Below are positions 8,697 through 39,656 of a stretch of DNA of 44,058 nucleotides, piece after piece. The notes under the pieces were generated by a model, which worked only from the letters and a program-made list of their open reading frames with translations, ran no database searches and was not told the DNA's origin. The number at the start of each line of letters is the position of its first letter. Position 1 is the first letter of the stretch. Source of the DNA: Alistipes sp. (GTDB lineage Bacteria; Bacteroidota; Bacteroidia; Bacteroidales; Rikenellaceae). The stretch spans positions 1 through 44,058 of the forward strand of contig JAFTVX010000028.1 of the NCBI GenBank assembly GCA_017465575.1, in the 5' to 3' direction. Made by a program: the position numbers and the translations under genes.

Positions 8697-8746
8697 TAAT
8701 AGTGTTGCAAATTGAGGCGTCAAAGGATGCCCCTTTTCACAAGAAA

Positions 8747-9760
8747 TTACTCAACAACTACATTCCAGTTGTGGATATCCTCAACACGGCCGTACTGGAT
8801 GCCCTGCAACTGATCGTACATCTTCTTGCAAGTCTCGCCAACCTTCATACCATAGTCGTAGGTAACATTGTTGTCGAGGTCGTACAAAGCGCCGATGGGC
8901 GAGATAACAGCTGCAGTACCGCAAGCACCTGCCTCCTCAAATGTAGCGAGCTCCTCAACGGGGATATCACGCTCCTCAACAGTAAGACCAAGGTCAACAG
9001 CAATCTGACGAAGGCTCTTGTTGGTAATTGAGGGAAGGATAGAGAGTGACTTGGGTGTTACATAGGTGTTGTTCTTGATACCGAAGAAGTTAGCAGCGCC
9101 AAACTCCTCAACCTTTGAGTGGGTTGCAGCATCGAGATACAATACATTAGAGAAGCCCTTCTGGTGAGCAGCCTCCAAAGACCAGATAGATGAAGCGTAG
9201 TTACCACCTACCTTAACATCACCAGTACCACGCGGCGCAGCACGGTCCTGATCACGCATAATGAGGGCCTTGATTGCGGTCATACCACCCTTGAAGTAAG
9301 GACCTACGGGGGCGCAGAAGATGATGAGGTCAGCCTCGTCTACGGCACGAACACCAAGGCAAGTCTTGGTACCGAGAAGGGTAGGACGCAAGTAGAGCGA
9401 TGCACCAGTCTCGTAGGGAGGAATGAACTCTGTGTTACGCTTAACGCACTCAACGCAACCCTCAACGAACTGCTCAACAGTAGGTGCGGGCAAGCAGAGA
9501 CGGTTAGCTGAGTTAATCATACGCTTAGCGTTCTCGTCGGGACGGAACAAGCGTACCTTACCATCAACACCACGGAAGGCCTTCAAGCCCTCGAAGATCT
9601 CCAAACCATAGTGCAAGCAAGCTGCAGACATATGCATCTTGATGTACTCGTCGTCGGTAACCTGCATCTGGCTCCACTGACCGTTAGCGTAGTGGTAACG
9701 AACATTGAAAGCGGTCTTGTAGTAAGCAAAACCAAGCTCTCCCCATTTAATGTTTTCCAT
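8747..9760 (-). CDS. ilvE: Branched-chain amino acid aminotransferase
   Basis: 337 residues; a PLP-dependent fold-type IV aminotransferase that interconverts leucine, isoleucine and valine with their 2-oxo acids using glutamate. The PLP lysine is predicted at residue 183 in GDVKVGGNYASS, and a late segment EEAGACGTAAVISPIG is typical of the BCAT-II subgroup. It starts 69 nt after metG on the same strand with no promoter of its own that I can recognise, so it may be read from the metG promoter. No other branched-chain biosynthesis gene is nearby. Confidence 0.95.
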   Translation of the reverse strand: MENIKWGELGFAYYKTAFNVRYHYANGQWSQMQVTDDEYIKMHMSAACLHYGLEIFEGLKAFRGVDGKVRLFRPDENAKRMINSANRLCLPAPTVEQFVEGCVECVKRNTEFIPPYETGASLYLRPTLLGTKTCLGVRAVDEADLIIFCAPVGPYFKGGMTAIKALIMRDQDRAAPRGTGDVKVGGNYASSIWSLEAAHQKGFSNVLYLDAATHSKVEEFGAANFFGIKNNTYVTPKSLSILPSITNKSLRQIAVDLGLTVEERDIPVEELATFEEAGACGTAAVISPIGALYDLDNNVTYDYGMKVGETCKKMYDQLQGIQYGRVEDIHNWNVVVE

Positions 9761-13746: not shown

Positions 13747-13963
13747 GAGCTTTAGCTCGCAGGCGGAACGCCTGCCACAAGCCCCTCCCTTGTCAAGGGC
13801 AGGGGTTTGGGGTGGGATGTAAATATAATTCCCCTTTTTGTATGATTTGCTAAAGTCGATTTTCTGCTACCAAAGGTAGCATTACAATAGTAGGCAGCTC
13901 TCCAAGCTCGCTTGGTAAGAGTTGCCTACTATTGTAATGAGGTGTGATAACACCAGAAAATCG
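13747..13963. repeat. Composite multi-hairpin element with cloverleaf-like 3' part, copy 1
   Basis: In order: GAGC-TTTA-GCTC (13747-13758); GCAGGCG-GAA-CGCCTGC (13759-13775); a CCCCTCCCTTG/CAAGGGcAGGGG hairpin (13782-13805); and a GGGGTGGGATGTAAATATAA link. The 3' part is closed by CGATTTTCTG (13857-13866) and CAGAAAATCG (13954-13963). It contains GCTACC-AAA-GGTAGC, a hairpin of about 26 bp (13881-13938) and GGTGT-GATA-ACACC (13941-13954). The order is the same at 35070-35295 with different but complementary stems. It lies between divergent genes, 134 nt before the kinase gene. Confidence 0.75.
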
Positions 13964-14084
13964 AAAATTGTAGCGACATTTCTCATTCTAACAACTAATA
14001 ACTAACAACTAATAACTAACAACTCCCTTTTGTTAAATAGTGTTAAATTCGCTGTTGCCGTGGTGCGACCTATATATATTTTTA

Positions 14085-16613: not shown

Positions 16614-16659
16614 AGCTCTTAAACAACTCTAACAACTAACAACTAATAACTAAAAACTA

Positions 16660-16695
16660 AAAAAAAGCCCGTAGGTGATGATGAGCCTACGGACT
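16660..16695 (-). terminator. Terminator of the Big2 lipoprotein operon
   Basis: AGCCCGTAGG (16666-16675) pairs with CCTACGGACT (16686-16695) with one mismatch. On the minus strand it is followed by a T run (16659-16665). It lies 26 nt past the stop at 16721. Confidence 0.8.
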
Positions 16696-20337: not shown

Positions 20338-20390
20338 AAATATATCCCTTTTTTCACATACCTAACAACTAATAGCTAAAAACTAAAAAC

Positions 20391-34980: not shown

Positions 34981-35069
34981 AAAAAGGAATATAATTTAAT
35001 AACTACCCGCTCCCAATACGCAAAATTGGTGGTTAGCAGCAAGGTAGAAGTGTTCTTTGATTTGAAACG

Positions 35070-35295
35070 ACACCTTTAGGTGTGCAGGGCAACGCCCTGC
35101 AACAAGCCCCTCCCTTATCAAGGGCAGGGGTTTGGGGTGGGATATAAATATAAATTACATATTATATTGATATTTGTAGTTATAGCTTTTGATTTTCTGC
35201 TACTTCAGTAGCATTATGATTTTGAGTACTAATTAAGTTAACTTAAAAAAGTACTCAAAGGCATAAAGAAGGTGCAAAGCACCAGAAAATCAAAA
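35070..35295. repeat. Composite multi-hairpin element with cloverleaf-like 3' part, copy 2
   Basis: The order is as at 13747-13963: ACACC-TTTA-GGTGT (35070-35083), GCAGGGC-AAC-GCCCTGC (35084-35100) and a CCCCTCCCTT hairpin (from 35107). A fold closed by TTTTGATTTTCTG (35187-35199) and CAGAAAATCAAAA (35283-35295) follows. It contains GCTAC-TTCA-GTAGC (35199-35212), TTTGAGTACT/AGTACTCAAA (35221-35230, 35250-35259) and GGTGC-AAA-GCACC (35271-35283). It fills the gap 34981-35335, directly upstream of the MFS gene, and no promoter was found there. Confidence 0.75.
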
Positions 35296-35335
35296 ATAGG
35301 CTCAGTAAACATTAAACAACTAATTATAAACTATT

Positions 35336-36626: not shown

Positions 36627-36757
36627 AATTTGTTGTGATAGCGGCGCTACTGCGACGCTTCCCAAAAAGTAACACCCCTTGGGCTGTACTTCTTAGTACT
36701 ATCCCAAGGGGTATTCTTTTGCGAAACGCCACATTAGCACCACTCTGACAACAAATT
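36627..36757. repeat. 131-bp structured element after the MFS gene (inverted partner at 39531-39656)
   Basis: The outer stem AATTTGTTGT (36627-36636) pairs with ACAACAAATT (36748-36757). The conserved 5' core GATAGCGGCGCTACTGCGAC and 3' core CGCCACATTAGCACCACTCT flank a long central hairpin (about 36661-36722) whose sequence differs from its partner's. It begins 1 nt after the MFS stop codon, so it may also end that transcript. A hairpin plus GCAGACG-GAA-CGCCTGC, like the start of the composite elements, follows at 36929-36955. Confidence 0.75.
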
Positions 36758-39530: not shown

Positions 39531-39656
39531 AATTTCTTGTCAGAGTGGTGCTAATGTGGCGCTGACACGAAAAATGGCGGATGGGACATACTAGGCGTAT
39601 TTCCCATTCGCCATTTTGACTGAAGCGTCGCAGTAGCGCCGCTATCACAAGAAATT
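39531..39656. repeat. 126-bp structured element after frr (inverted partner of 36627-36757)
   Basis: The outer stem AATTTCTTGT (39531-39540) pairs with ACAAGAAATT (39647-39656). Read on the minus strand it has the same cores as 36627-36757, with a different central hairpin (ATGGCGgATGGG with CCCATtCGCCAT). The outer stem has a compensated G-C to C-G swap relative to the left copy. It overlaps the frr stop codon and is in the sense orientation to frr, as the left copy is to the MFS gene. Confidence 0.75.

Follow-up and report, generated by a model that had tools for sequence, protein, structure and literature searches.

A covarying cloverleaf fold and a triplex-type hairpin in a probable MITE-like element of Alistipes

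Introduction

What keeps the shape of a non-coding stretch of DNA while its bases change? Two places in one contig of an Alistipes genome raise this question. The window analyzed here is the whole of that contig (JAFTVX010000028.1 of assembly GCA_017465575.1, 44,058 nt), which is contig 35 in an assembly of 1.95 Mb in 47 contigs. A first-pass annotation, made from the letters of the window alone, described composites at 13747–13963 and 35070–35295, with the same four-helix, cloverleaf-like fold and compensatory changes between the two, and argued for a selected structure in RNA or single-stranded DNA. Both composites are present, and every helix pair listed for them was found. Their features are as follows.

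Copy 1
13747–13758, + strand: small hairpin 1 (GAGC TTTA GCTC), read directly and found in folds; the unit also occurs as a dispersed repeat in this genome
13759–13775, + strand: small hairpin 2 (GCAGGCG GAA CGCCTGC), from sequence and fold; dispersed repeat
13782–13818, + strand: triplex-type hairpin, code match 8/8, linker of 3; pyrimidine arm 13782–13791, purine arm 13795–13805 (one bulged C), TTT 13806–13808, third strand 13809–13818
13856–13964, + strand: cloverleaf, from folds and alignment, 106.3 bits with covariance model R1; closing stem 13856–13865/13955–13964, arm 13866–13880, long hairpin ~13881–13938, arm 13941–13954

Copy 2
35006–35313, + strand: inserted DNA holding copy 2, approximate extent, ends placed by eye against locus L142
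35050–35064, + strand: possible remnant of an IS4-type left end (GTGTTCTTTGATTTG), aligned to IS ends and to other copies; weak, score 16 against a 95% control of 12
35070–35083, + strand: small hairpin 1 (ACACC TTTA GGTGT), read directly, recurring in other copies; its 5′ half pairs elsewhere in the RNA fold
35084–35100, + strand: small hairpin 2 (GCAGGGC AAC GCCCTGC), from sequence and fold
35107–35143, + strand: triplex-type hairpin, matching the triplex code; pyrimidine arm 35107–35116, purine arm 35120–35130 (one bulged C), TTT 35131–35133, third strand 35134–35143
35189–35295, + strand: cloverleaf, from folds and alignment, 98.7 bits with R1
35299–35309, + strand: possible decayed right inverted end (GGCTCAGTAAA; consensus CGCATCAGTAGTA), aligned with intact-ended copies; not above control in the end-score test

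The two leading hairpins of copy 1 belong to another dispersed repeat of the genome.

Results

The four-helix fold is far beyond chance in both window copies. Folded alone as RNA, the cloverleaf of copy 1 (13855–13965) reaches −64.0 kcal/mol (z = −12.6) and that of copy 2 (35188–35296) −40.5 kcal/mol (z = −9.2), and in each case 0 of 200 shuffles was as good. The cloverleaf of the best-preserved copies is a four-way junction whose central arm measures 20 bp; loops of the side arms are mostly 3 to 4 nt long. The earlier description of the central hairpin as unrelated in sequence stands except for its unpaired, CAAG-YTYR-CTTG-like tip and an A-rich bulge 3′ of it, both of which recur between copies.

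This genome holds four cloverleaf places, i.e., the two window copies and two further ones. In a MAFFT alignment of these four (A2), which was made from sequence only and given a structure obtained by folding these four copies themselves, 95.0% of 181 cells are paired and two-sided change occurs in 16 of 47 pairs. The cells changed on both sides number 20, compared to 7.3 ± 2.1 in shuffles and 1 to 6 in slid versions, which bears out the compensatory changes proposed earlier. The covariance search that had been suggested as a check returned many further copies. A model of the cloverleaf (R1) matched in at least 21 of the 180 genus genomes, and a first order-wide search, with R2, gave matches in two of 393 genomes, namely this one and G470. 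A broader model (R3), built on divergent copies after that search, matched in at least 61 of the 180 genus genomes and in at least 11 of the 393 order genomes including this one, and in 10 of the 206 other genera sampled; one of these matches (G290) is weak (E 0.007) and without the four-way fold. These genome-wide counts are lower bounds because any search of more than 40 genomes was run with stricter filters. In the genus search, R3 scored no more than 21 candidates per genome, and copy counts are lower bounds in the several genomes that reach 21; G108 has at least 19 different cloverleaf places among the R3 matches listed. For this genome, the genus search counted five R3 matches, three of them given individually, and the order search lists the four known places. 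Copy counts are partly non-independent because some copies are orthologous pairs (G133a/G074a and G086b/G108c).

Two larger alignments were used to count covariation. Among 23 close copies (A4), 169 cells are changed on both sides, compared to 44.9 when shuffled; among 24 divergent copies (A6), the numbers are 349 and 97.0, and both-sided change is seen in 44 of 45 pairs. Both sets contain only + strand matches selected by an E-value cut, by which L097 was dropped from A6, and three rows (L052, L053 and L071) are common to both; because the models to which they were fitted come from the same family, their paired percentages are biased upwards. In these alignments, G.T cells outnumber A.C cells 34:12 in the 23-row set and 43:13 in the 24-row set, and 26:7 and 28:7 where both neighbors are Watson-Crick pairs. 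G.T is the more frequent in 15 of 23 and 16 of 24 rows, the less frequent in 1 and 0, and equal in 7 and 8, respectively. G.U is thus in three- to fourfold excess over A.C, and therefore one strand, the + strand, most simply as an RNA, carries the fold. A strand-biased mutation pattern could also give an excess of G.T, and G.T is tolerated in DNA as well. Both kinds of evidence give strong support to the earlier claim that structure has been selected in a single strand.

Two known identities of the cloverleaf were considered and rejected. It is not a tRNA gene, as ARAGORN found none in the window, and it is not a known Rfam RNA, as the Rfam 15 covariance models gave no match in the window at gathering thresholds.

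In 35 of 49 cases, simple ORF calls place the left neighboring gene so that it reads into the + strand; two of 59 copies were flagged within ORFs, one of 90 codons and one a 640-codon open frame. Copies are mostly intergenic, and where both neighbors were called these are most often convergent (19/48) and rarely divergent (4/48). Such a placement would suit an intrinsic terminator or a 3′-UTR stabilizer for convergent genes. We regard this reading as very unlikely: in the copies viewed, no clear T-run was seen by eye directly 3′ of the closing stem, the same position bias is equally expected from the loss of insertions near promoters, and copy 1 itself is located between divergent genes.

How the copies spread can be read from their flanks. 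In many close-type copies, GCATCAGTAGTA-like strings terminate the region to the right of the closing stem, and in some the reverse complement of this end reappears upstream. A search for ends of this type found them in at least 10 of 180 genomes, with 0 for the reversed control among the matches listed. The same type of end bounds an IS of ~1.3 kb in G014, in which two ORFs match DUF4372 and DDE_Tnp_1 and the NCBIfam IS4 family, and it recurs near contig ends in G065; one complete IS was seen (L167), with the transposase split into two ORFs. The left flank of the composite resembles the left end of the IS in G014. Among the 54 of 59 copies that entered a test for this end (the other five have too little upstream sequence), 12 scored above the 95% shuffled control, where ~3 are expected by chance, and eight of them clearly so. 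The copy on C36, which is copy 4 of this genome, scored 41 against a control of 13.

The flanks of the eight strong copies carry a second signature. In seven of them, the C36 copy included, the 9-bp flanks agree at 7 to 8 of 9 positions, at total lengths of 335 to 417 bp, while in the remaining one (G109d) they agree at only 4. Cross pairs of flanks from the eight copies average 3.9 with a maximum of 6, and of 40,320 permutations only one, the true pairing, was as good. For 24 other copies with a flank call, agreement is 0 to 4 of 9, and for the weaker left-end candidates G095a, G103a and G140e it is 3, 3 and 2 of 9. None of 25 later-added, mostly divergent copies has an IS left end above control; a right-end-like string is slightly above control in four of these (G097, G186b, G132c and G099c). 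In this genome, copies 1 and 3 have no recognizable IS ends and copy 2 has a trace only, and no target duplication was identified for window copies 1 and 2. The best-preserved layout comprises a left IS-like end, two small hairpins, a triplex hairpin, an AT-rich spacer, the cloverleaf and a right inverted end; in some of the best-preserved copies, the two small hairpins are replaced by other sequence. A solo element of ~190 bp with the same ends lies on C24 of this genome. In L173 (G132:C5), a triplex block and a different hairpin come after an IS-type end, with no recognized cloverleaf.

An empty site was found for copy 2. A search with this locus matched 39 of 61 genomes, and 14 loci were read: the flanking genes, 355 nt apart here, are separated by 35 to 207 nt, with the element absent, in 14 of 14 relatives inspected. 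In L149, a stem-motif string lies within a coding region, and the gap there is 43 nt. A megablast search of a plasmid collection with the neighboring gene found nothing. Together, the ends, the flank duplications and the one empty site point to mobilization of the best-preserved copies by an IS4-family (DDE) transposase, as judged from sequence. Shared inverted ends and target duplications are found in part of the copies and insertion polymorphism at copy 2, as for a MITE derived from the IS4 family. In kind, the element is a MITE, and MITEs and triplex motifs are both kinds already known.

The first-pass annotation had looked to a hairpin-binding HUH/Y1 transposase instead. The Y1 transposase (PF01797) was rejected as mobilizer: it is present in two of 180 genus genomes (G042 and G043), and the 21 genomes matched by R1 all lack it; the broader model R3 has one match in G043. 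A DUF4372/DDE transposase homolog was found in at least seven of 180 genus genomes and not in this MAG. Multi-copy IS are often missing from MAGs, and for this reason its absence here says little.

Could the helices simply be those of an ordinary decaying MITE? Quasi-palindrome correction is able to perfect stems, and in a functionless element the helices might be kept solely by template-switch repair of imperfect palindromes. Parts of one study (PMC10969869) describe MITE transcripts as stable stem-loops, which would fit such an origin. However, repair perfects stems locally, yet copies that differ in nearly every pair share the four arms, the junction, the tip and the bulge, and the same arms, junction, tip and bulge are kept outside the genus too. 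The excess of G.U over A.C also speaks against repair alone. We consider this explanation quite unlikely.

Shortly before the cloverleaf lie CCCCTCCCTT and GGGGTGGGAT, which had been taken for linkers. They are the pyrimidine arm and the third strand of an intrastrand-triplex hairpin, and this hairpin covaries on three strands. In order, the stretch consists of a pyrimidine arm, a loop, a purine arm, an NTT linker and a third strand, and the third strand is the 5′ to 3′ complement of the pyrimidine arm, which is the code of an antiparallel purine-motif triplex. Two counts support this code. First, in an unanchored scan, in which overlapping registers of one block were counted apart, 48 of 139 distinct combinations match at 8/8, compared to 1.1 expected from shuffled third regions. 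Second, among 27 distinct anchored blocks in nine pyrimidine-arm classes, with the anchor chosen after examples had been seen, 17 match at 8/8, five at 7 and five at 6 or fewer. The fraction of positions that follow the code (G*G-C, A*A-T or T*A-T) is 0.884 in these blocks, compared to 0.680 ± 0.032, with a maximum of 0.819 in 10,000, when third strands are swapped. A direct duplication was rejected as the origin of the GGGGTGGG stretch, since the third strand is a mirror of the purine arm: the CCTCCCTT blocks fit the code at 7 to 8 of 8 and a direct repeat at 1 to 2 of 7. In the G-run classes TCCCCCTT and CCCCTCCC, a direct repeat also fits at 4 to 6 of 7, and code and direct repeat are not discriminated there. 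Among divergent copies, L214, L216, L217 and L221 have a triplex block before the cloverleaf, and L218 to L220 and L222 do not.

A purine-motif triplex is a DNA rather than an RNA structure, and it fits awkwardly with a pure RNA reading of the composite. By its sequence, the block is a class II intrastrand triplex motif as in PMC4666352. Further variants of the block were seen: L002, L010, L069 and L085 carry an extra hairpin-like module (GCGTTGCGATTAAGGTGAG...GCAACGAAAAGG; GCATTGCG in L085) inside the loop of the triplex hairpin. Triplex blocks without a cloverleaf lie near rRNA and tRNA genes in L004 and L032 (5S rRNA-like by eye), L010 (tRNA-Leu) and L009 (tRNA-Ser), and L004 has another long hairpin 3′ of the block.

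Outside the genus, the cloverleaf keeps different company. In eight of ten loci (L202 and L205 to L213), its 5′ base lies within 11 nt of the end of an ARAGORN-predicted tRNA on the same strand (Ser, Tyr, Lys, Lys, Val, Thr, Ser and Arg), and in two (L208 and L213) ARAGORN found no adjoining tRNA. Within the genus, one of 59 copies is next to a tRNA gene (G123, 20 nt away). All nine tRNA-adjacent cloverleaves share the strand of their tRNA. Behind the cloverleaf, a copy of the tRNA 3′ end is present in four of nine tRNA-adjacent loci (17, 14, 10 and 10 nt; the 95% score of shuffled sequences is 8) and was not found in the other five; a 10-nt match in L205 to an inner part of the tRNA was left out of this count. 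In L202 (G470), the 3′ end of tRNA-Ser and an exact 17-bp copy of it are 184 bp apart, and the cloverleaf fills most of the interval. This layout is familiar from site-specific integration. Compared with Rfam at gathering thresholds, ten tRNA-linked or candidate loci gave only tRNA and the Bacteroidales small SRP, with the cloverleaf unmatched. The cloverleaf is a separately conserved module, which outside the genus stands behind tRNA genes without MITE ends.

These copies, together with the triplex, bear on whether the working form is single-stranded DNA. The + strand, exposed in replication or transfer, might fold into the cloverleaf and the triplex and serve as a site of recombination or fork pausing, much as attC sites do for integron integrases. 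The triplex hairpin obeys a DNA purine-motif code on three strands, the cloverleaf comes out nearly the same with DNA as with RNA parameters, tRNA 3′ ends are repeated behind four of nine tRNA-adjacent cloverleaves, and parts of PMC4666352 report that the class II motif folds stably as single-stranded DNA in vitro. The DDE-type ends and 9-bp duplications of the best-preserved genus copies argue against this reading, as does the lack of a PF01797 Y1 transposase in all 21 genomes with R1 matches, and we judge it unlikely.

The window contains other repeats. A second structured family of ~125 to 130 nt (AATTTSTTGTCAGA...TCACAASAAATT) occurs at 36627–36757 (−) and 39531–39656 (+), with a further match at 8731–8748 (−), and in L013, L015 and L017. 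It forms one long hairpin of ~10-bp modules parted by internal loops, and the stems differ between copies; sequence similar to it adjoins cloverleaves in G086 and G108. At 578–1960, there is an array of ~11 copies of a palindrome-like CGGGTAAC..TTAGATACCCG unit together with GGGTG..TTTTTAACACCC units. Runs of a CTAACAACTAATAACTAA-type repeat occupy several intergenic regions, e.g., 13995–14030, 16629–16664 and 20355–20390.

Discussion

Here, we describe a composite that is probably the body of a non-autonomous, MITE-like element, with the cloverleaf as a conserved module whose working form is most likely an RNA. We suggest that an IS4-family transposase with DUF4372 and DDE domains moves the best-preserved copies in trans, and transposition would leave the 9-bp duplications of target DNA that flank seven copies; the copy at 13747 lacks recognizable ends and may have originated by the same route. 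Selection would then maintain the shape of one strand. The element could be transcribed by read-through from an upstream gene or tRNA, and the cloverleaf RNA would form a compact 3′-trailer domain, whose conserved tip and A-rich bulge would let a factor recognize it. The triplex hairpin, by contrast, may act at the level of DNA when its strand is exposed.

A broader reading is more tentative, and we hold it to be possible rather than probable. The cloverleaf might be a mobile structured RNA domain with a history of its own, which forms the 3′ trailer of tRNAs in several families of the order, partly with copies of tRNA ends behind it, and which in certain Alistipes genomes has multiplied to tens of copies, some of these carried by IS4-type MITEs with a triplex hairpin. 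It would then be a bacterial analog of tRNA-linked SINEs.

The element shares traits with several known systems. The tyrT repeats of E. coli (rtT RNA) are also a non-coding unit behind a tRNA gene in which the 3′ end of the tRNA is repeated; a four-way fold is not known to be part of that unit, whereas the element described here has one and gives no Rfam rtT match at gathering thresholds. Integron attC sites are likewise variable in sequence and conserved in structure, act on one strand and carry extrahelical bases, while here a four-way junction and, in the best copies, IS-type ends are present. REP/RAYT systems have dispersed extragenic palindromes in common with it, unlike which PF01797 Y1 is found here in none of the genomes with R1 matches.

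Closer still are bacterial MITEs such as BrickBuilt of Porphyromonas gingivalis, which is built on a 23-nt minisatellite (PMC4596501), and QMITE2 (PMC10969869). As far as the parts of these sources consulted go, they are equally non-coding, intergenic and IS-derived, with inverted ends, short target duplications and structured transcripts expected; the core here differs in being a covarying four-way cloverleaf with a triplex hairpin, and the cloverleaf also occurs outside the MITE. With the class II triplex motifs or PIT elements (Holder et al. 2015, PMC4666352), as described in parts of that paper, it shares the pyrimidine arm, purine arm, short loop and purine third strand, the intergenic location and the many copies. 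The same parts report that no association of the E. coli motif with transposons, phages or plasmids was found, and the main text has no word starting with Bacteroid-; by contrast, the motif here lies inside a mobile composite, shortly before the cloverleaf. A literature search that covered few subscription papers returned no description of this element or of the combination of MITE, triplex and cloverleaf.

The finding thus concerns a non-coding mobile element with a cargo that is conserved as a shape, as seen in the 349 two-sided cells of 24 divergent copies. The element joins MITEs, intrastrand triplex repeats and tRNA-trailer elements, which are usually separate subjects of study. Two questions thereby become testable: what selects for structure within MITEs, and whether mobile DNA carries triplex repeats along.
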